The position numbers were made by a program, and so were the translations under genes. Below the pieces are notes generated by a model that did not search any database, was not told the DNA's origin, and was given only the letters and a program-made list of their open reading frames with translations. This document shows positions 4,349 to 22,538 of a stretch of DNA of 28,174 nucleotides, piece by piece; position 1 is the first letter of the stretch; every line of letters starts with the position of its first letter. This stretch comes from a virus, in the IMG/VR virus record IMGVR_UViG_3300036828_000655, positions 1 through 28,174 of that record; one strand, 5' to 3'.

Positions 4349-4578
4349 AGCTGCCGCCCACGAATTGCCCGATCTGCAATGCTATGGAGCGATTTGCGCG
4401 AAAAGAGCGGCGCATCGGCAACATCACCTACGTCTACACGCGCTGCGGAACGTGCCGCACCGAATTCTCAATTGCGACCTACACCGATGATCAAAAACGG
4501 GCACGGGATCGAGATCAGCGTGAGCGTATCCGCCGACTCCGAGGGCAGTTCCGGCTTCGCTCTGCCCGTCGATCCTGA
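4345..4578 (+). CDS. Small zinc ribbon protein, 77 aa
   Basis: Cys8-x2-Cys11 (NCPICNAME) and Cys34-x2-Cys37 (RCGTCRTEF) form a four-cysteine zinc ribbon, with beta-strand sequence between the pairs (IGNITYVYTR). The remaining 35 residues are strongly basic (RARDRDQRERIRRLRGQFRL), which suits nucleic acid binding. The first codon overlaps the previous stop by 4 bases. The basic tail is encoded in the same DNA as the start of the next gene, so its composition may be constrained by that overlap. Small zinc ribbon proteins are common in phages and have no single role. Confidence 0.65.
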   Translation: MKLPPTNCPICNAMERFARKERRIGNITYVYTRCGTCRTEFSIATYTDDQKRARDRDQRERIRRLRGQFRLRSARRS

Positions 4579-4828
4579 GAAGAGCGTTACCCCGCGTCAA
4601 CTAGAATTACTTGCGCTCTATGCCTCCGGTTATAGATACGAGCATATAGCTCGTGTGAAATTCCTATCTCCATACACCGTGAGGCGTCATATGGCCTTGG
4701 CAGTAGCTCGATCCGGCGCTCGAAATCTGACGCACCTCTGCTCCGCGCTGGTCGAGGCGGGGATGATCCGGCGCAACGCTGAGAACATCTATGAGCCGGT
4801 GGCTCCCGACCTTCGGATTGTGGGGTGA
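4487..4828 (+). CDS. LuxR-type helix-turn-helix protein, 113 aa
   Basis: Residues 34-95 match the GerE/LuxR DNA-binding domain: VTPRQLELLALYASGYRYEH, IARVKFLSPYTVRRHM, then ARNLTHLCSALVEAGMI. Known features present are the T-P-R-Q-L-E opening, the Ala-Ser-Gly turn, and SPYTVRRH as the recognition helix. There is no receiver or sensor domain, only about 30 polar residues in front. The start is uncertain. ATG 4487 puts the first 92 bases inside the zinc ribbon gene, while GTG 4520 is an alternative; the frame stays open back to 4379. Phage-encoded single-domain LuxR proteins are usually read as transcription regulators. Targets here are unknown. Confidence 0.7.
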   Translation: MIKNGHGIEISVSVSADSEGSSGFALPVDPEKSVTPRQLELLALYASGYRYEHIARVKFLSPYTVRRHMALAVARSGARNLTHLCSALVEAGMIRRNAENIYEPVAPDLRIVG

Positions 4829-5705: not shown

Positions 5706-6157
5706 CTGACGCACAGCTACTCGCGGCTCAACGAGCGCGAGAGGATCGCTTGCTTGATGCGGCGATTGATAAAAATCTCGGAGTCTTCTTTGCTGGCGTG
5801 GGAGCAGTCACGCCGGGAGTATCCGAAGCGGAAACAGTTGGCCCAGACGCGCGGCACAAGCTTCGTGGCCTGCTTCGCTATTACGCGAAGAAGGATCATC
5901 CATTTACTGCTTGTGTCTCCGACAATATGAAGCGCTTCGGCCCCAATCGCACGGAGCGCGTGTGCGCCACGCTCAAGGACATAATTCGAGGCACGACACA
6001 TTGGCGCGGCCATCCAGAACTCGACCACGGAGCGCCGGGTGCTGTTGTCGCTTCGAATGCGCCTGCGATCGATGAGGAAGTGGCACAGCTTCTACTCAGT
6101 CTCAGCGAGTCGGATCTCGAAATTCTTTTCTCTGACGCACAGGAGGCGGTGGCATGA
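5702..6157 (+). CDS. Head-module protein with conserved-looking Cys motif, 151 aa
   Basis: GTG start in a 4-base overlap with the zinc-finger gene. The centre has the stretch YYAKKDHPFTACVSDN, then ERVCATLKDIIRGTTHWRGH (about residues 60-102). I recall similar HPF..C / VC..LKD / G.T.WR stretches in phage proteins near or within head maturation proteases, but I cannot name the family. The N-terminal 30 residues are helical. The C-terminal 30 residues are acidic and Leu-rich (EEVAQLLLSLSESDLEILFS). It overlaps the protease gene by 4 bases, so the two are probably made together. Confidence 0.55.
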   Translation: MTDAQLLAAQRAREDRLLDAAIDKNLGVFFAGVGAVTPGVSEAETVGPDARHKLRGLLRYYAKKDHPFTACVSDNMKRFGPNRTERVCATLKDIIRGTTHWRGHPELDHGAPGAVVASNAPAIDEEVAQLLLSLSESDLEILFSDAQEAVA

Positions 6158-8043
6158 ATTTCGACAACGGCATCGATTACGTCGGCATGTTTCTTTTCAA
6201 AGCTGTGCCTACTGATCCAACCGATTTGATTCCAGCCGAAGATCCATACGCCGGATATGCCGAGGCACCTCCTGCGATTTCTGGATACCGGGATGCAAAT
6301 GTCGCAGGCATGGCGTGTTGGAATTGCGCCCACTTCACGGCCATTGATGACGCCGACAACGATGGAATTATTGATGGCATTTGCGATTTGTTCGAGGCAA
6401 AGGCCGATGGCAATTGCACATGCGATCGATTCACGGCACACGCTGATCTGCTTCGTCAAGCGCCACACACATCATTTCCGGAGGACATGAGAAATCAAAA
6501 GCTCGATCAGCAGGAAATGGCAGCATACGGTCCGAGCATGACGATGATGTCGTATTCGGATAAGTCTTCTCTCGGCGCTTTGAATTTTGCTGGGGGCGAC
6601 GCCGAGGAAGAGGATGGCCTGATTTGGAAGGACATCCTTCGTACAGGTAAATGGACGCACACGCCGACGAGCAAGGGTGTCGTCAAAAAGCAACTACAAA
6701 TCATTCGCGATGGTGATAGCGATCCGACTGCCGGGGTCATTTCGTTGTCGGAGCTATATAAAAATTTCGATGAGGGCGCAGTTCCATACGTAACGGTGCC
6801 TCTCTCGGATGATCAAGAAGACCACAAGAACATCGCCCGTTTGAATACGGGCTTCGTTCGAAAGCTCCAATTGATCGATCGCGATGGTGAAAGTGTCCTG
6901 CGTGCTGGAATTGATTTCACAGAGCCGGATGTCAAGGGGAAGGTTCTGCGAGGAACAATTCCAGATGTCAGCGCAGGCATCCCCTTCAACGTGATCAGGC
7001 GTTCCGATAACCGTGTTTTCAATACGGTGCTCGATCACGTTTGTCTGACTCGAAAGCCATTCGTGGAAAAGCTTGTTCCATTTGGCATCGCCGCTGCCGA
7101 TGGTGATGAGCTTCCAGTCGAATCCTTCGAGCCGGAAACGGAGGCGGAGTCAAATCCGCCGGAGCCACCTACTCCCTCCGAGCCGGAGCCTGCTCGACCA
7201 GCAGCTTCGCCTCCGTCATCTTTGTCGTTCCGTCAGCAGATCGAAGAAATTCGAAATGCGCTGACGACTCAGCTTCGACTTGGCCCCGACTATGAAGTGG
7301 AGGACATAACCGGAACAGTCGCAACGATCGTTCACAAAATCTCAGGGGCAAAATGGAAGGTCGGATTCAGGCTCACCGAGCAAGAAGACATTCCAATTCG
7401 TGTCGCTGAGGTTGAGAGTTGGGAGATGATCGAGCCGCAACCCGCAGCGGGCGAGGCCGAAGAGGTAGTTGCTGCTTCTAATTCTCCCAAGATCGATGAA
7501 TTGCAACGTGCAAGAGAACTGCGCGAGCTTCGACTCTCGCAGCCAACCAGACGAACAGGAGGAATTCAAATGTCCACACTGTCGCTGGATGGTGTTGAGC
7601 TTTCGGCTTTGCCGGACGACGCTCGCGCCCGAATCCAGTCGATCGTTGACGAGAACGCCAATTTGCGGCGCGAGGGTCGCGAGACAAAGGCCGATGATCG
7701 GATCGAGGAATTGAAGACGATTCCAGGTCTGAATCTTTCGGATCGGCCTGGTGCTCTCAAGCTCTACCGACAGGTGATGCTTTCGGACGATGGCGGTCCA
7801 GCGGTCATCCTATTTTCAGAGGGTGACGAGGATAAAAAGGAGCCGATCACGGCCCTTGCAATTCTCGACCGCTTCATCGATGGTCTGAAAGGTGCCGGTG
7901 ACGTGCAACTTTCGGATCAGCATTTCGCGTCCGGAAATGACACCAAGCCGCCGACGAACGCTGAGGGGGAAAAGAAGCCGCTCGAAGAGCGTGTGGAAGA
8001 GTCCAAGCAAGCGCTCTACGGCAAGCGCACCCATCGGAAGTAG
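6154..8043 (+). CDS. Capsid maturation protease-scaffold fusion
   Basis: 629 residues in three parts. Residues 50-95 hold a Cys cluster (Cys55, 58, 77, 88, 90) with an aspartate-rich loop inside it (DDADNDGIID). Residues about 150-310 resemble the Mu gpI-like and related prohead protease fold: HKNIARLNTGFVRKLQL, DVSAGIPFNVI, LDHVCLTRKPF. His224, Ser273 and His295 are candidate catalytic residues by position only. A Pro/Glu-rich linker (about 330-360) leads to a variable region and, from Met473, a scaffold-like helical domain. Such proteases normally cut the scaffold and capsid during head maturation, often removing themselves. The gene precedes the decoration and capsid genes, as expected. 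Confidence 0.7.
   Translation: MNFDNGIDYVGMFLFKAVPTDPTDLIPAEDPYAGYAEAPPAISGYRDANVAGMACWNCAHFTAIDDADNDGIIDGICDLFEAKADGNCTCDRFTAHADLLRQAPHTSFPEDMRNQKLDQQEMAAYGPSMTMMSYSDKSSLGALNFAGGDAEEEDGLIWKDILRTGKWTHTPTSKGVVKKQLQIIRDGDSDPTAGVISLSELYKNFDEGAVPYVTVPLSDDQEDHKNIARLNTGFVRKLQLIDRDGESVLRAGIDFTEPDVKGKVLRGTIPDVSAGIPFNVIRRSDNRVFNTVLDHVCLTRKPFVEKLVPFGIAAADGDELPVESFEPETEAESNPPEPPTPSEPEPARPAASPPSSLSFRQQIEEIRNALTTQLRLGPDYEVEDITGTVATIVHKISGAKWKVGFRLTEQEDIPIRVAEVESWEMIEPQPAAGEAEEVVAASNSPKIDELQRARELRELRLSQPTRRTGGIQMSTLSLDGVELSALPDDARARIQSIVDENANLRREGRETKADDRIEELKTIPGLNLSDRPGALKLYRQVMLSDDGGPAVILFSEGDEDKKEPITALAILDRFIDGLKGAGDVQLSDQHFASGNDTKPPTNAEGEKKPLEERVEESKQALYGKRTHRK
7557..7563 (+). promoter_or_regulatory. 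Internal ribosome binding site for the scaffold
   Basis: AGGAGGA lies six bases before the in-frame ATG at 7570, inside the protease-scaffold gene. In-frame codons around it encode RRTGGIQM, an unremarkable linker, so the sequence is probably kept for translation initiation. Confidence 0.7.
7570..8043 (+). CDS. Scaffold protein from in-frame internal start
   Basis: Met473 of the fusion protein is preceded by AGGAGGA with six bases of spacing, as strong a ribosome binding site as any in the window, in the middle of an open reading frame. Starting there gives a 157-residue acidic protein (MSTLSLDGVELSALPDDARA onward) with helices around residues 15-55 and 125-150 and a Pro-rich, disordered part before the last helix. 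Lambda makes its scaffold Nu3 from an internal start within the protease gene C, and the same layout is inferred here. The short form would be made in excess of the protease. Confidence 0.7.
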   Translation: MSTLSLDGVELSALPDDARARIQSIVDENANLRREGRETKADDRIEELKTIPGLNLSDRPGALKLYRQVMLSDDGGPAVILFSEGDEDKKEPITALAILDRFIDGLKGAGDVQLSDQHFASGNDTKPPTNAEGEKKPLEERVEESKQALYGKRTHRK

Positions 8044-8060: not shown

Positions 8061-8798
8061 ATGCCATTTGGCGTTCAACGCGGGTGGATGCGCTATGCCC
8101 TTCCGCGTCCCGAAATCCTCGCATATCCGCTGAGCACGAATGTCATCGACTCAGTTGTGCTCAATTCGGGTGGAGTTGCACCCGATGCGAGCGGGCCGTA
8201 TATGTTGCGGCGTTATTTGGTAGCGGGCACTCCGCTGTCAAAGCGCACCGACAATACATACGAGCAGTACACCGGAGCTACCGATGTTGCGGCTGGCTCT
8301 GTATGGACTCTGACGATGGTGGGACCGCCCACGGGTGGAACCTTCGCCGTTTCGGTGCATACGACAACAGGTGGTCAGCAGACCACACCACAGCAGCCGT
8401 TCAACGTCTCGGCGGCTACATTGCAAGCGGCAATTATTGCGCTTTCAAATGTAGGCGCAGCCGGTGTCACGGTGACGCTCTCCGGAAACGTCTACACACT
8501 GACATTTGCTTCGACGGTGGCCGAGGTGGACAACATCACGGTTGACGCTTCGCAGTTGACCGGACCCGGAAATCAAGATGTCGTTCCAAAAGAGACGACA
8601 CAAGAGCAGACGGCAGGCGCTCAGAACGTCGCCGGAATTCTGTTCGATACGGTGGAATTTGCAGACGGCTCCGAGCTTTCAGACGAGCCGGTTGCAATGC
8701 TCCGCCGTAACGTTTCATTCCAAGCAGCCAAGATCGTCGGATTTGTCGCGAATCAGTCGGCAATTACGACGGCACTGTCAACCTGCGAATTTGTCTAG
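8061..8798 (+). CDS. Head decoration protein with inserted beta module
   Basis: 245 residues. The outer parts fit lambda gpD-type decoration proteins: YMLRRYLVAGTPLSKR (48-62) and AGILFDTVEFADGSE to PVAMLRRNVSFQAAKIVGF (191-228). Residues about 80-182 are an extra beta-rich module (GGTFAVSVHTTTGG, AATLQAAIIALSNVGAAGVT, then YTLTFAS) that also appears in the tail tube protein. Decoration proteins sit on the outside of the shell and stabilise it, so the insertion would be displayed on the capsid surface. An AGGAGG site precedes the ATG. The gene lies directly between scaffold and capsid genes, the usual place for gpD. Confidence 0.7.
   Translation: MPFGVQRGWMRYALPRPEILAYPLSTNVIDSVVLNSGGVAPDASGPYMLRRYLVAGTPLSKRTDNTYEQYTGATDVAAGSVWTLTMVGPPTGGTFAVSVHTTTGGQQTTPQQPFNVSAATLQAAIIALSNVGAAGVTVTLSGNVYTLTFASTVAEVDNITVDASQLTGPGNQDVVPKETTQEQTAGAQNVAGILFDTVEFADGSELSDEPVAMLRRNVSFQAAKIVGFVANQSAITTALSTCEFV
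8298..8606 (+). repeat. Inserted beta module, copy in decoration protein
   Basis: Encodes residues about 80-182 of the decoration protein. It shares a pattern with the copy in the tail tube protein: G-T-F-x-(V/L)-x-V, then S/A-A-A-x-(L/I)-Q-A-A-(I/L)-x-A-L-S-x-V-G, then T-F-x-x-x-x-A, V-D-x-x-x-L. The likeness is at protein level; the DNA is diverged. Boundaries are estimated from where gpD-like sequence stops and resumes. Confidence 0.6.
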
Positions 8799-8808
8799 GA
8801 GGTGAGAA

Positions 8809-9864
8809 ATGCCACTATTTGATATTTATGACCAGGCGGTTCTCACCGAGCTAGTCAATCAGCCGGTTGACACGGCTCTTGAAGCCGCACCATTCCTGGG
8901 TGAGACGATTGCTCCGGCAGTCGATCAGGAAAGCCGCATGGCTCGAATGGATATTGGACGACAGTATTCATTCGGCATCGGGCAATTCAAGGCACCGAAC
9001 GCGATGCCTGCGTTGGTCGAGATGCCAGTCACAGAGCGCAGGGAAGCGCTAATCGAGATGGCCCAATTGGAAGAGATGCACCGCATCAATTCCGAGCAAT
9101 GGCTGAGGCTGAATTCGTCAGATGAATTCATTGCCAACGCTGAGGGCCTCGATGTCGTGTCTCGTGGTCAAGTGCTTCGTCGCCGGTTGGAGCGTCTGAC
9201 CGAGTGGATGCGCTGGCAAGCATTCGTAAATGGAAGTGTGACGATCGTGTATCCACGCACGAACGCTCAGATTTTCATTGACTACGGATTCCTGCCGGGT
9301 CACATGCCAGTGTCGGGAACGCTATGGAGCGATCTCGTCAACTCAGATCCCGTCGCGGATTTGGAAGCTTGGCAGCTTCAACTCGCGAACGATGCCGGTT
9401 TCTTGGGGTTGAATATCCACCTCACCTCCAAGACAGCCAAGTTGATCCTCACAAATCAGAAGCTCAAGACGTATTTCAACGTGCCGACCGGGACTCCGTT
9501 CCGTGCCACGTTGGAGCAAGTCTCACAGCTTCTCGCTGTGGGTACGCAATTTGTCGTTCACGATGCTGGTTTCCGTCCGATGGCATCCGGTGCGTCCCGT
9601 TCGGAGGCCGCGCACACGCGCTACCTGCCGAATTACAAGGTGCTCATCACGACGGAGTACAACATCGAGGGTGAGCCGATTGCGGACACCCTCAACGGCC
9701 AGGTGGAAATCGGAACCGACTACAACGAAACCGAAATCCAGCAGGGTCCATCGAGTGAGGTGCTGCTCGACAATATGACCAAGAATCGCTACCTCCGTGA
9801 AGCGGCAGCGAGAATCGTTCGGATCATCCATCCGGAATGCTTCCTCTCCGCCACGGTCGCATAG
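8809..9864 (+). CDS. Major capsid protein, lambda gpE-like
   Basis: 351 residues, the usual length for the gpE family of HK97-fold capsid proteins. It begins MPLFDIYDQAVLTELVNQ. Typical parts are the early FLGETIAPAV segment, the long helix with RLERLTEWMRWQAFVNG, the central NDAGFLGLNIHLTSKTAKLI segment, and the C-terminal EIQQGPSSEVLLDNMT and IVRIIHPECFLSATVA. An AGGAGGTGAGAA ribosome binding region gives a strong start, as expected for the most abundant virion protein. It should form the icosahedral shell after scaffold-directed assembly and proteolysis. Confidence 0.85.
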   Translation: MPLFDIYDQAVLTELVNQPVDTALEAAPFLGETIAPAVDQESRMARMDIGRQYSFGIGQFKAPNAMPALVEMPVTERREALIEMAQLEEMHRINSEQWLRLNSSDEFIANAEGLDVVSRGQVLRRRLERLTEWMRWQAFVNGSVTIVYPRTNAQIFIDYGFLPGHMPVSGTLWSDLVNSDPVADLEAWQLQLANDAGFLGLNIHLTSKTAKLILTNQKLKTYFNVPTGTPFRATLEQVSQLLAVGTQFVVHDAGFRPMASGASRSEAAHTRYLPNYKVLITTEYNIEGEPIADTLNGQVEIGTDYNETEIQQGPSSEVLLDNMTKNRYLREAAARIVRIIHPECFLSATVA

Positions 9865-9882
9865 GAAAGGAGGCGATATAAA

Positions 9883-10548
9883 ATGGAAGCCAGTGAAGAG
9901 AAGCAGGAGAAGCAGGAGCAGAGCGCCGATGTTTATCAGGCGATGAACGATGTCACTCTGCAACGTGTAATTGGACGAACCGGCGGCGGTGATGACGCGG
10001 AGGAAATTACCGAGAGCGTCACTTACCCCGCAGGCAGTGCAGTGCAGGCGAATTCGCTTCCTTCTCATTTGCGTGAGCGGGTCGAAGCGGGTGAGCTAGG
10101 CGGAATGCTTCGTCCACTCTCCGGCGATGAAGCGGAGGCTGCCAAAAACGCTCCGGTTGGCGAGCCGGAGTTCGGCGTATTTGTTGCCGAGCATGAAGCA
10201 GAGGCACATGCGCTCGAACAGTACGGCCATGTTGTCGTGCCCGAGGATCAAGCAATGGAGGCTCAGTCATCCAGCGCTGATTATCAGAGGCAATATCAGC
10301 AGGCCGCAGCGGAGCACGGACTTAGTGACCGTCCGAATTTGGCGGCTACGAATCCGGCAAATCGGGAACGGGTTCCGGATGAAGTGCTCCAAGGTGCAGA
10401 GACGCGCACAGGACTGCCCTACAACCGTGGGCCGGTTGAGGGCGCGACAACCTCCGAAGAGGCTGAGGAAAATTCGGAGGAAGGCGGAGAAGAGCCTACG
10501 CGCCCCGCTCCGCCACAAACCGCTGACCCGCAGACGATAGGCGGTTAG
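9883..10548 (+). CDS. Acidic, largely disordered protein after capsid gene, 221 aa
   Basis: The start follows AAGGAGG, a very strong site, so the protein may be abundant. The N-terminus is Glu/Gln/Lys-rich (EASEEKQEKQEQSADVYQAM). The middle is Ala/Glu-rich and includes PLSGDEAEAAKN. The end is an acidic, Pro-rich tail. Short structured parts are possible at residues about 25-75 (LQRVIGRTGG, SLPSHLRERVEAGELG). It lies between capsid and connector genes, where small head proteins are usual. I cannot name it; a minor head or head-tail joining accessory protein is a guess from position. Confidence 0.55.
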   Translation: MEASEEKQEKQEQSADVYQAMNDVTLQRVIGRTGGGDDAEEITESVTYPAGSAVQANSLPSHLRERVEAGELGGMLRPLSGDEAEAAKNAPVGEPEFGVFVAEHEAEAHALEQYGHVVVPEDQAMEAQSSSADYQRQYQQAAAEHGLSDRPNLAATNPANRERVPDEVLQGAETRTGLPYNRGPVEGATTSEEAEENSEEGGEEPTRPAPPQTADPQTIGG

Positions 10549-10552
10549 TCGC

Positions 10553-11059
10553 ATGGCGATTCAGGGTGCTGTTGCTGATCGTGTCCGGGCATTGATCCCG
10601 ATTACATACGATGCGCTCGAAAAGGATGATCGAGTTGGTGACAGCACCCTGCAATCGGCAATTGATCTTGCTAAGGAAAATACGGCAGGGATAGTCGTTG
10701 CAAATGCTCAGGAAGAGCTTTATCCAGTAGTCGTCGTTGATTACATCGCGAAGCTCGCGGTAATCGAAATCTCAAATGCGGCGATCGATTATTGGATGAA
10801 TCAAGCGCTGGCCGTGAGCGCTACCGGGACAAATGAGAATTTGTCCTACGTCGATCGAGCGGCTTATGTTGGCAATCTTCGTGCGCAATATATCCAAGAG
10901 ACTCGCGAGAAATATAATCAAGTCGCGAAGATCGTTGGGTATTACATCGATAACGGGGAATCCGTACCGCAGCTTTCGAGCGCGACGATCAACCCGTTCC
11001 ATCTGACACCAAGCCCCGAAGAATTTCCTCGTCCTTACCGGCAGACACAATACTCGTAA
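10553..11059 (+). CDS. Probable head-tail connector (adaptor) protein, 168 aa
   Basis: A mostly helical protein of the size of phage head completion/adaptor proteins. It begins with a helix (MAIQGAVADRVRALIP), followed by a regular helical body (LQSAIDLAKENTAGI, VDYIAKLAVIEISNAAIDYW, LRAQYIQETREKYNQVAKIV) and an extended Pro-rich C-terminus (FHLTPSPEEFPRPYRQTQYS) like the arms that such proteins wrap around neighbours. It sits in the classical slot after the capsid gene. An AGGCGG site lies upstream. The assignment rests on length, helical character and order, not on a diagnostic motif. Confidence 0.5.
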   Translation: MAIQGAVADRVRALIPITYDALEKDDRVGDSTLQSAIDLAKENTAGIVVANAQEELYPVVVVDYIAKLAVIEISNAAIDYWMNQALAVSATGTNENLSYVDRAAYVGNLRAQYIQETREKYNQVAKIVGYYIDNGESVPQLSSATINPFHLTPSPEEFPRPYRQTQYS

Positions 11060-11746
11060 ATGTCATTCACACTTCTCGAAACTTCGGTCGTCGGTCTGGA
11101 AGATTTTCAGCGCGCCGCTTTCTATGTCTTTTTCGAAGGCATGAACAATGCGCTCGCAGTGATCGAGGCATATTGGCAACCGCGTGATCAGACTTTCAAC
11201 GATCGCACCGGGCGTGACATTCCGCCAACGACTCTAGAGCCGTTTCCAAATGATAATTTCCACGAGGGTCACAGACCTTCGCTTGTCAATGGAACGCCAG
11301 AGAATTATCCAAATCTTACGGTCTTCGCCACGCAAGCAGTGCCATCGCCATTTGATCAAGGGCTTGATGTTGAAGATTCTTGGATCGAAACTCTTTTGGT
11401 TGAAGTGATGGTGAAGGGTTCGAATGAGGAAGAGACGAATCGCAGAATTCAGAGAGCTACCGAAGCGGCTGTGATGTGCATTCGCCGTAATATGGGATTG
11501 GGTGGAGCGACCGATGGTTACACCGCTGCCCCCTCTGTTGTAATTTCGGATCTCTTTGCGGTACGTTCGATTTCTCAAGGCGGAGCTTATCCGGGTGAGA
11601 AAGGCTCCGGCGCGCGTTATTTGTGGCAAGGGTCGCAGATCACATTCCGCGTGCAAAAAGAATCCGTTCAACAGCCGTCTGACGGCTCCGACACCTTCGC
11701 TAAGGCGTCAACAGTCGATTATTCGGCGCAAATCGATCAAGGCTAG
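11060..11746 (+). CDS. Probable tail terminator or neck protein, 228 aa
   Basis: The ATG directly follows the connector's TAA, with no clear ribosome binding site, so it is probably coupled. Central features are YPNLTVFATQAVPSP and a strand leading into a helix (ETLLVEVMVKGSNEEETNRR, then RATEAAVMCIRRNMGLGG), the alpha/beta arrangement of tail terminator proteins such as lambda gpU. The protein ends in an acidic, Ser-rich tail. Its place just before the tail tube gene supports a role in closing the tail tube or joining it to the head. Alternatives are other neck proteins. Confidence 0.5.
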   Translation: MSFTLLETSVVGLEDFQRAAFYVFFEGMNNALAVIEAYWQPRDQTFNDRTGRDIPPTTLEPFPNDNFHEGHRPSLVNGTPENYPNLTVFATQAVPSPFDQGLDVEDSWIETLLVEVMVKGSNEEETNRRIQRATEAAVMCIRRNMGLGGATDGYTAAPSVVISDLFAVRSISQGGAYPGEKGSGARYLWQGSQITFRVQKESVQQPSDGSDTFAKASTVDYSAQIDQG

Positions 11747-11761
11747 GAGGAACGGTACTAG

Positions 11762-11803
11762 ATGCCTTCTGCGAAATGTCGGGTAAACAATTCAATGCTG
11801 TAA
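11762..11803 (+). CDS. Possible 13-residue mini-ORF
   Basis: MPSAKCRVNNSML lies between the terminator-like gene and the tail tube gene. AGGAGG stands about 11 bases before its ATG, farther than usual. Its TAA directly precedes the AAGGAGGTGAGC binding site of the tail tube gene, so a ribosome finishing here would be placed at that site. It could be a leader peptide for the tail tube gene or mere chance. Nothing in the peptide suggests a function. Confidence 0.2.
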   Translation: MPSAKCRVNNSML

Positions 11804-11816
11804 GGAGGTGAGCTAA

Positions 11817-12782
11817 ATGTCAATCAGTGCTCCAAGTTCGGCATTCTTCCGAGTCGCGGTAAACGATTCGAGCTTCATTCGAGGCGCGGCCCGTCTCCTT
11901 GCGGCTCCAATCGATCAGCCGATGCCGGATGAAATTGCCGAGGTAGTCACGTTTGCCCCGGTCACTGGACAAAATGATGTCCAGACAGTTTCCGAGGGTG
12001 CTGCCACAAGCGGAACTTTCAAGCTAACGGTGCTTGGGCAGCAAACAGCGGGCATCGCATTTGGTGCTACGGCAGCGGCTATTCAAGCTGCTCTCGTGGC
12101 ACTTTCCACTGTCGGCTCTGGGCAAGTGGTGTGCTCTGGTGGTCCACTGCCAACCACGCCGGTCGTTTGCACTTTTCAAGGCACGTTGGCAAAAACCGTT
12201 GTGCCGACGATGAGTGTTGACAATACGGCTTTGGTCGGTGGCAATGTGTCGGTGGCACATACCACGCCAGGTGGTCCGGATCTGAACATTTACGATGCGA
12301 TGCCAGGATGGAGTGATCTCGGTGCGACCAAGAACGGGATCACAATTACCATCAACAACACGGAAGAGACATTCGATATCGATCAGCAGCTTTCGATCAT
12401 CGGATCTCAGCCGGTCAGTTGGACGGTGACAGTCGGAACGTCTCTCGCGGAAGTCACGCCACAGAGAATGCAAGTCGCGTGGGAGGGTTCGGATATCAGC
12501 ATCGACACTACTCCCACGGCTGGACCTGAATTGGAAATCGGATTCGGTGCTCCGAACTTCTATATTCAGCGTCGGCTTGCCGTTCTCTATCAGCGTCCGA
12601 GCAAGAAGATCCGGGCATTCTTTTTCCGGATCACGCAGCGGTCGCCTGCGGAATCGGCGTTGGCGTTCAACAAGACAGGCGAGCAGCAGTCAATTCCAGT
12701 GGTGTTCAACTGCATCGCGGACAATACGATCACCGATGTCCTCAAGCAGTTCTTCATCATTCGGGATCAAGCAACGACGTAG
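11817..12782 (+). CDS. Major tail tube protein with inserted beta module
   Basis: 321 residues. The tail tube signature is MPGWSDLGATKNGITITIN followed by FDIDQQLSIIGSQPVSW, LAEVTPQRMQVAWEG, and the C-terminal pair FFFRITQRSPAES and SIPVVFNCIADNT (from about residue 160). Near the N-terminus, residues about 48-154 are an extra module (SGTFKLTVLGQQTAG, AAAIQAALVALSTVG, VVCTFQGTLAK) also found in the decoration protein. A strong AAGGAGG site precedes the ATG. Tube proteins stack as hexameric rings, so the module would be repeated along the tail surface. A terminator-like hairpin follows the gene. Confidence 0.8.
   Translation: MSISAPSSAFFRVAVNDSSFIRGAARLLAAPIDQPMPDEIAEVVTFAPVTGQNDVQTVSEGAATSGTFKLTVLGQQTAGIAFGATAAAIQAALVALSTVGSGQVVCSGGPLPTTPVVCTFQGTLAKTVVPTMSVDNTALVGGNVSVAHTTPGGPDLNIYDAMPGWSDLGATKNGITITINNTEETFDIDQQLSIIGSQPVSWTVTVGTSLAEVTPQRMQVAWEGSDISIDTTPTAGPELEIGFGAPNFYIQRRLAVLYQRPSKKIRAFFFRITQRSPAESALAFNKTGEQQSIPVVFNCIADNTITDVLKQFFIIRDQATT
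11958..12278 (+). repeat. Inserted beta module, copy in tail tube protein
   Basis: Encodes residues about 48-154 of the tail tube protein, between the N-terminal arm and the GWSDLG tube core. It shares the G-T-F, I-Q-A-A-L-V-A-L-S-T-V-G and T-F landmarks with the module in the decoration protein. Sequences of this type recur in structural proteins of other phages, as far as I recall, but I cannot name a Pfam family. Confidence 0.6.
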
Positions 12783-21626: not shown

Positions 21627-22538
21627 ATGTCAGTCCTCGGCACAGAATTTCTAACCCCTGGTCCGGGCGATGGCGCTCCGGGTCATTTCACGCTCCCTGG
21701 CACTGGTTTTTCTGTACCGGCTGGCTTGGAGGCAGTGCTCGAATTCAACGGCCTCTTTATGAACATACAAGAAAACGTCGATCGCATCAGAGTTACTAGC
21801 ATCGATGGGCTTTTTGACGCCGATGTCCGTGATGTACGCGATGTGCGATCGGATGCCGATGGGGAATGTCCTTACAATTCTCTGTATGGCGGTCGGACGA
21901 TCGTCATAGGTGGCACGATTCAGACGTATACGGTTGGCAAGATGCGCGATCTTCAAATGGCGCTTCGTGCGAGCTTCGCTGATATTCGGAATGAGTACCC
22001 CTTGCATTTCCGGGTGGGAGATTACACCAAGGATCACTTTATCAACTGCAAGAAGATCGCTCCGATAGCCGGAATCGAGCAACAGACGAGCCTTCGGGCA
22101 GAACGTGATTTTCAGATTTCTCTACGTGCCTCGAATCCACGTTTCCTCTCGTACACGCAAAATCTTTTGGATGCGGATCTTCCGGGTTCGATGATCAACA
22201 CGCCACTTTTGGTAGGGAATGCTCATAATCGTGGAGATTATTGGGCACAGCCGATCTATCGCATATATGGAAAGGCCACTCGCACCACGATCATCAATGA
22301 TACGACAGGCAAGCGGTTTTCTGTTGGTTTCATTGAAGCAGGCGACTATCTGGAATTCGATCTGACCAAAGCCAGTCCGACCTTGCAAAATAGTCGCGGT
22401 GAGAATTCGTGGCTGTGGCTCAACGATGACAGCGATTATGTCGAGCTTCAAGGTGGCGTCTTCGGCTCTGATAATGAGATTTACTACTCCGGTGACGCGA
22501 CGCGCGTGGAGATCCGCTGGCGCGATAGCTGGATCTGA
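21627..22538 (+). CDS. Distal tail protein (Dit), siphovirus type
   Basis: 303 residues. The N-terminal half has the siphovirus tail component pattern: VTSIDGLFDADVRDVRDVRS, SLYGGRTIVIGGTIQTYT, MRDLQMALRASFADI. The C-terminal half is a beta domain with WLWLNDDSDYVELQG and EIRWRDSWI. Dit proteins form a ring at the tail tip, joining the tube to the hub and receptor-binding proteins. The ATG starts one base after the fibre gene's TGA without a clear ribosome binding site, and the stop shares one base with the hub gene. Confidence 0.75.
   Translation: MSVLGTEFLTPGPGDGAPGHFTLPGTGFSVPAGLEAVLEFNGLFMNIQENVDRIRVTSIDGLFDADVRDVRDVRSDADGECPYNSLYGGRTIVIGGTIQTYTVGKMRDLQMALRASFADIRNEYPLHFRVGDYTKDHFINCKKIAPIAGIEQQTSLRAERDFQISLRASNPRFLSYTQNLLDADLPGSMINTPLLVGNAHNRGDYWAQPIYRIYGKATRTTIINDTTGKRFSVGFIEAGDYLEFDLTKASPTLQNSRGENSWLWLNDDSDYVELQGGVFGSDNEIYYSGDATRVEIRWRDSWI

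Follow-up and report, generated by a model that had tools for sequence, protein, structure and literature searches.

A shared mobile virion module in the head decoration and tail tube proteins of a viral genome fragment

The viral record IMGVR_UViG_3300036828_000655, a fragment of 28,174 bases from an uncultured phage which was analysed as a whole and is referred to here as the window, encodes a gpD-like head decoration protein and a tail tube protein, and it is close to certain that one shared module is inserted in both of these carriers. As an overall explanation we moderately favour a mobile virion domain that was acquired separately by the two genes, is displayed outward and serves in weak multivalent binding of glycans. 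The coordinates of the carriers, the two module copies and the neighbouring structural genes are given in Table 1.

Table 1. Structural genes and module copies in the window
Feature	Coordinates	Strand	Basis or extent
Head decoration protein (gpD-like), 245 aa	8061..8798	+	core residues 1-77 and 180-245
Module copy 1, in decoration protein	8301..8570	+	profile match residues 81-170; predicted domain ~8298-8603 (to residue 181)
Major capsid protein, Phage_cap_E	8809..9864	+	PF03864 E 4.3e-11; phrog_29 E 5.6e-27
Tail tube protein, 321 aa	11817..12782	+	core ~residues 8-52 and 156-319
Module copy 2, in tube protein	11973..12242	+	profile match residues 53-142; predicted domain to ~12266 (residue 150)
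Tape measure protein, 2006 aa	14606..20626	+	phrog_1272 E 1.4e-11, plus other tape measure families
Distal tail protein (Dit)	21627..22538	+	phrog_33 E 4.5e-10; PF22768 SPP1_Dit E 0.0028, under curated cut-off

Carriers, detection and predicted fold of the module

The decoration gene ends at 8798 and the capsid ORF, a member of the lambda gpE family (PF03864), starts directly downstream at 8809. Homologues of the decoration core that are without the module matched the head families phrog_49 and phrog_909; the window protein itself reached only E 0.04 against the PHROG decoration families. The tube gene lies upstream of the tape measure gene, and the model of its product, searched whole with Foldseek, matched the solved tubes of JBD30, Douge, YSD1 and Bxb1 (E 7e-7 to 1e-4). 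No relatives of the tube protein were confirmed in a collection of 84,980 species genomes, and the sole match in a cultured phage, Nocardia phage NTR1, was made via the module. Just upstream of the decoration gene, a 629-aa ORF (6154-8043) gave no Pfam or PHROG match, and, judged by where it lies, it may encode a head maturation protease or scaffold.

The original prediction placed the same inserted module in the decoration and tube proteins. A profile was built from 106 modules of other phages, with the window clade and its related carriers excluded, and this independent profile found exactly these two frames. The tube match covers residues 53-142 with E 6.6e-33; in the decoration protein, residues 82-168 were matched with E 5.3e-17 (domain E 1.4e-16). 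No third copy was detected below E 2 among the 552 frames of the window. Both ORFs had been called correctly, and the module limits first proposed, 8298-8606 and 11958-12278, were near exact when compared with the profile match and the predicted domain, with a module length of about 92-105 residues in both carriers. BLASTP of the tube against the decoration protein gave 36% identity over 114 columns at E 0.11, which is non-significant alone. Smith-Waterman alignment of the two window modules scored above 1000 of 1000 shuffles (Z 8.8), and all 1000 shuffles were likewise beaten in the related loci L003 (Z 18.5) and L004 (Z 11.2). The pairwise profile alignment that had been proposed as a check bore out the relationship, with hhalign joining tube-only and decoration-only module sets at 99.0% (E 9e-18). 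Conservation within the module falls mainly on Gly, Ala, Thr and hydrophobic core residues, with no obvious binding patch.

AlphaFold2 models were computed from alignments of the window and fetched viral loci only, some fragment ends in the decoration alignment being misplaced, which possibly lowered the quality of that model. The decoration model reached a mean pLDDT of 87.9 and the tube model one of 90.4, with values of about 85-98 across the modules. In the model of copy 1, strands are predicted at residues 80-87, 94-101 and 105-108, a helix at 118-126, and further strands at 136-141, 144-149, 156-162 and 173-181. Copy 2 is modelled with strands at 55-60 and 65-72, a helix at 86-94, and strands at 104-108, 116-120, 133-135 and 144-150 (pLDDT blocks of 92-98). 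Thus both modules were predicted, with high confidence, to share one topology of strand-strand-(short strand)-helix-four strands, with a strand at each end. The description of this unit as a beta module holds for its mostly stranded make-up and has to be amended by the one predicted helix.

Both whole models matched 8giu (Patience gp22), 9d93/9d94 (the Bxb1 gp23 and tube chains) and 8kee (A-1(L) sheath) in Foldseek searches. The whole decoration model matched the Bxb1 chains 9d93_Ma and 9d94_Jh, and the whole tube model aligned with the Bxb1 capsid chain 9d9w_Aa at 4.4 A across 110 columns (24% identity). Among predicted viral structures, the best match of the decoration model was the major tail protein of the Microbacterium phage Teamocil, again via the module. 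The contractile sheaths of Milano and A-1(L) (8fop, 8foy, 8fqc, 8kee) also matched the window models, and such sheaths may be another carrier class of a similar domain. None of 53 modules tested matched a curated Ig-like (Big) family in NCBIfam or Pfam, and the whole decoration model gave weak matches to antibody domains (E 0.4-0.9).

Insertion into complete cores and origin of the two copies

Relatives of the tube protein in IMG/VR are mostly about 195-220 aa long and align on either side of the insert with nothing between, and the decoration genes of those relatives encode 127-155 aa with the insert absent. Altogether, 30 distinct contigs, some of them near-duplicates, held both genes and no module in either. 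The search for module-free relatives was thus positive, with identities to the window of about 46-57% for the tube and 59-68% for the nearest decoration cores. Because complete homologous cores exist without the module, a reading of the region as part of the core fold was ruled out, and the proposed insertion of one domain into two different multi-copy virion proteins was upheld.

Three members, the window, L003 and L004, carry both modules and form one clade; L132 has the module in the decoration protein only. In a distant relative, L130, a tube module occupies the same loop as in the window, which is the N-terminal loop just ahead of a conserved GW-x-x-LGAT segment. Just upstream of the capsid gene of L130 lies a 350-aa gene (L130:139-1188), read by eye as decoration-like and containing the module twice, in an earlier loop and in the Y-x-Y-T-G-A hairpin that it also occupies in the window. 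In core trees built with the modules cut out, the window clade formed one group (99 support) amid module-less rows for both genes. At least three state changes were required on the tube tree and at least two on the decoration tree, these counts being blind to gain versus loss. The trees favour a gain of the module in the window clade, because this clade nests among module-less rows.

The original prediction had further envisaged that the module spread within the genome, and this part was not borne out. The tube module found its best partners in other phages, at up to 86 bits, and scored 16-28 bits against its own decoration partner, which ranked about 108-110 of 114; the decoration modules of the clade were closest to each other and then to modules of other phages. 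DNA similarity between the two window modules was not above that of shuffles. A recent duplication inside the genome is thus unsupported. These sequence comparisons make separate recruitment of each copy from the gene pool of phages the likeliest origin, since the partners of the tube module lie elsewhere and the DNA of the copies aligns no better than shuffles. An alternative, in which this phage lineage duplicated the module of one virion gene into the other, is very improbable. That both the window clade and L130 have the two modules together would fit such copying, and the branch order of the weakly resolved module tree leaves room for an old duplication; however, numerous modules in other phages are closer to the tube copy than the module in its partner gene is, the DNA of the two copies shows no similarity, and L132 has the decoration module alone.

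The module family on heads and tails of other phages

A viral profile scan confirmed the module at a minimum of 283 loci, of which 80 were read. Placement was found to vary between N-terminal, internal, C-terminal and tandem, the last with up to seven copies (L053), and the carriers are many, so that the family clearly moves between virion proteins, as had been proposed for a mobile module. Tandem arrays of five to seven modules, similar to Bxb1 gp23, were seen at L053:1993-5553 and L084:2210-4135. When 50 records were searched whole, 41 had the module (most of them having been picked for one), and 15 of these 41 had it in two or more genes. The module is thus present on solved virions and on hundreds of viral contigs, yet it is unnamed in Pfam and NCBIfam, neither of which held a curated model for any of 53 modules tested.

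The module is included in the PHROG 'tail sheath' and 'major tail' models, whose matches are therefore misleading; the 'tail sheath' match on the decoration protein and the 'major tail' matches on the tube reflect the module and not the carrier. As these families absorb the module, annotation can go astray. A Pfam match of the decoration protein to DUF4010 (E 1.6e-4, 21.9 bits against a cut-off of 30) was rejected because the model matches one of 53 modules only.

In about ten other viral records a head protein and a tail protein each carry the module, these records having been gathered via the module and not sampled at random. In G017, G022, G027, G029 and G043, a decoration protein (phrog_3583) and a major tail protein (phrog_2491) both carry it, and in L024, L058, L089 and L067 (with L162) the carriers are the capsid and the major tail protein. 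In G039 the module is found in a gene read by eye as capsid-like and at the N-terminal loop of a phrog_117 tube. A phrog_117 tube, thus of another family than the window's, is encoded at L161:2748-3623; its module lies ahead of a GWKMTGHT motif, apparently in the N-terminal loop that is also used in the window, and this record also has a module on a capsid-like gene.

In the window clade, in L132 and in the phrog_3583 group, the module lies between a G-x-x-L ... Y-x-x-Y hairpin and a G-I/F-L strand. Compared without modules, the decoration cores of the window clade show remote homology to those of the phrog_3583 group (hhalign 80.9%, E 1.2e-5), so that the PHROG 3583 decoration proteins (L153-L158, L038) hold the module in a hairpin that corresponds to the one occupied in the window clade. 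In contrast to the window, the partner tube proteins of these phages have the module at the C-terminus. L034 and L025 show a similar decoration arrangement with weaker support. Since the nearest relatives are without modules, several insertions into the decoration hairpin are favoured over one old insertion lost many times. Selection for module coverage of both head and tail is a fair reading of these records. A broader reading, that unrelated phages repeatedly and in parallel coat head and tail with one unnamed domain via recurring acceptor loops (a hairpin in gpD-like decoration proteins and the N-terminal loop in tube proteins), is offered tentatively, as somewhat less than an even chance. 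If it holds, selection would act on whole-virion module coverage, whatever the carrier, and the acceptor loops would be natural display sites.

Among solved particles, Bxb1 belongs to the same domain family by profile (E 6e-58 for gp23, 4e-11 for the capsid and 9e-8 for the gp19 tube) and is likewise one phage with the module on head and tail (PDB 9d93, 9d94, 9d9w, 9d9x). It differs in that its capsid and tube copies lie near the C-terminus, whereas both window copies are internal, in that its head carrier is the capsid protein and not a decoration protein, and in that gp23, a tail tip cage, has several tandem modules. Taken whole, the decoration protein of the window had its best solved match in the minor capsid protein gp22 of Patience (8giu), although this carrier is far from the window protein in sequence; its match to the module profile was weak (residues 109-190 of 232, E 0.004). 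Within this minor capsid protein family, an extra 'peanut-like' domain is present in Patience and absent from Adjutor (PMC10635136). The Patience protein probably carries the module, and we infer that the 'peanut-like' domain is this module, placed in the same loop as in the window. The window pair is thus a further case of an exchanged accessory virion domain already present on solved particles.

Possible role of the displayed modules

The mechanism that we propose starts from a single mobile domain of phage virions, about 92 residues in length, of which copy 1 sits in the hairpin of the gpD-like decoration protein and copy 2 in the N-terminal loop of the tube. The ends of the domain are predicted to be close together, and it would therefore fit in a loop and leave core assembly undisturbed. 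Decoration proteins attach to the exterior of the capsid, and the tail tube is built of stacked hexameric rings, its length being governed by the tape measure. Each decoration and tube subunit would carry one module outwards, amounting to several hundred per particle. In lambda, a tape measure of 853 aa corresponds to about 32 rings, and scaling from this value the 2006-aa tape measure of the window gives an estimate of about 75 rings and about 450 tube modules, with an estimated several hundred further modules on the head. The tube module presumably faces outwards, because the channel would be blocked by six inward-facing copies in each ring.

The weak surface binding put forward in the original prediction is plausible by a precedent found in Douge, in which Ig-like domains of the capsid and tube, 919 per particle, bind M. 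smegmatis and its glycans (PMC13033339). Like the window, Douge displays an accessory domain on the head and tube of one phage; its domains are, in contrast, described as Ig-like, and no Douge chain was among the solved-chain matches of the module profile. Promiscuous Ig-like domains of tailed phages, for which frequent exchange among virion proteins and weak carbohydrate binding have been proposed (Fraser et al. 2006, as cited in PMC9230969), differ from the window module in that the latter has no Pfam Ig-like (Big) match and has a helix predicted between its third and fourth strands. By analogy with Douge, the modules may bind host-surface glycans weakly and with high valency, and this binding would speed adsorption before the baseplate engages its receptor. 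We put a role in host-glycan adhesion at about an even chance. No ligand was found for any member of the module family.

It is unlikely that the modules serve instead to stabilise the particle by clamping neighbouring decoration trimers and tube rings, with any host binding incidental. Precedents for such a function exist in the YSD1 tube, in which an inserted beta-sandwich adds a large intra-ring interface, and in lambda gpV, which without its Ig-like domain is about 100-fold less active and still forms tails (PMC8718954). However, the related contigs described above have both genes and neither module, and the same domain occurs on unrelated carriers at varied sites, including the C-terminal ends of capsid and tube proteins and the long tandem arrays, so that a self-standing unit fits better than a fitted interface. 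Still less probable is that the modules are near-neutral or selfish loop insertions, tolerated because their ends are close and bringing no benefit. The patchy distribution, with presence in one small clade and absence nearby, and the great variety of carriers are what such insertions would produce; yet the modules are in frame, their fold is conserved across large divergence, head and tail are repeatedly occupied together in unrelated phages, and the estimated load is several hundred domains per particle. We thus retain outward display with a possible adhesive function as the preferred reading. The same cores with and without the module constitute matched sets, which make the function of phage accessory domains directly testable, and the common acceptor loops suggest natural sites for protein display. 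Elsewhere in the window, ahead of the structural genes, a 149-aa ORF (4379-4828) matched the LuxR-type helix-turn-helix family PF00196 at 25 bits, over the cut-off.
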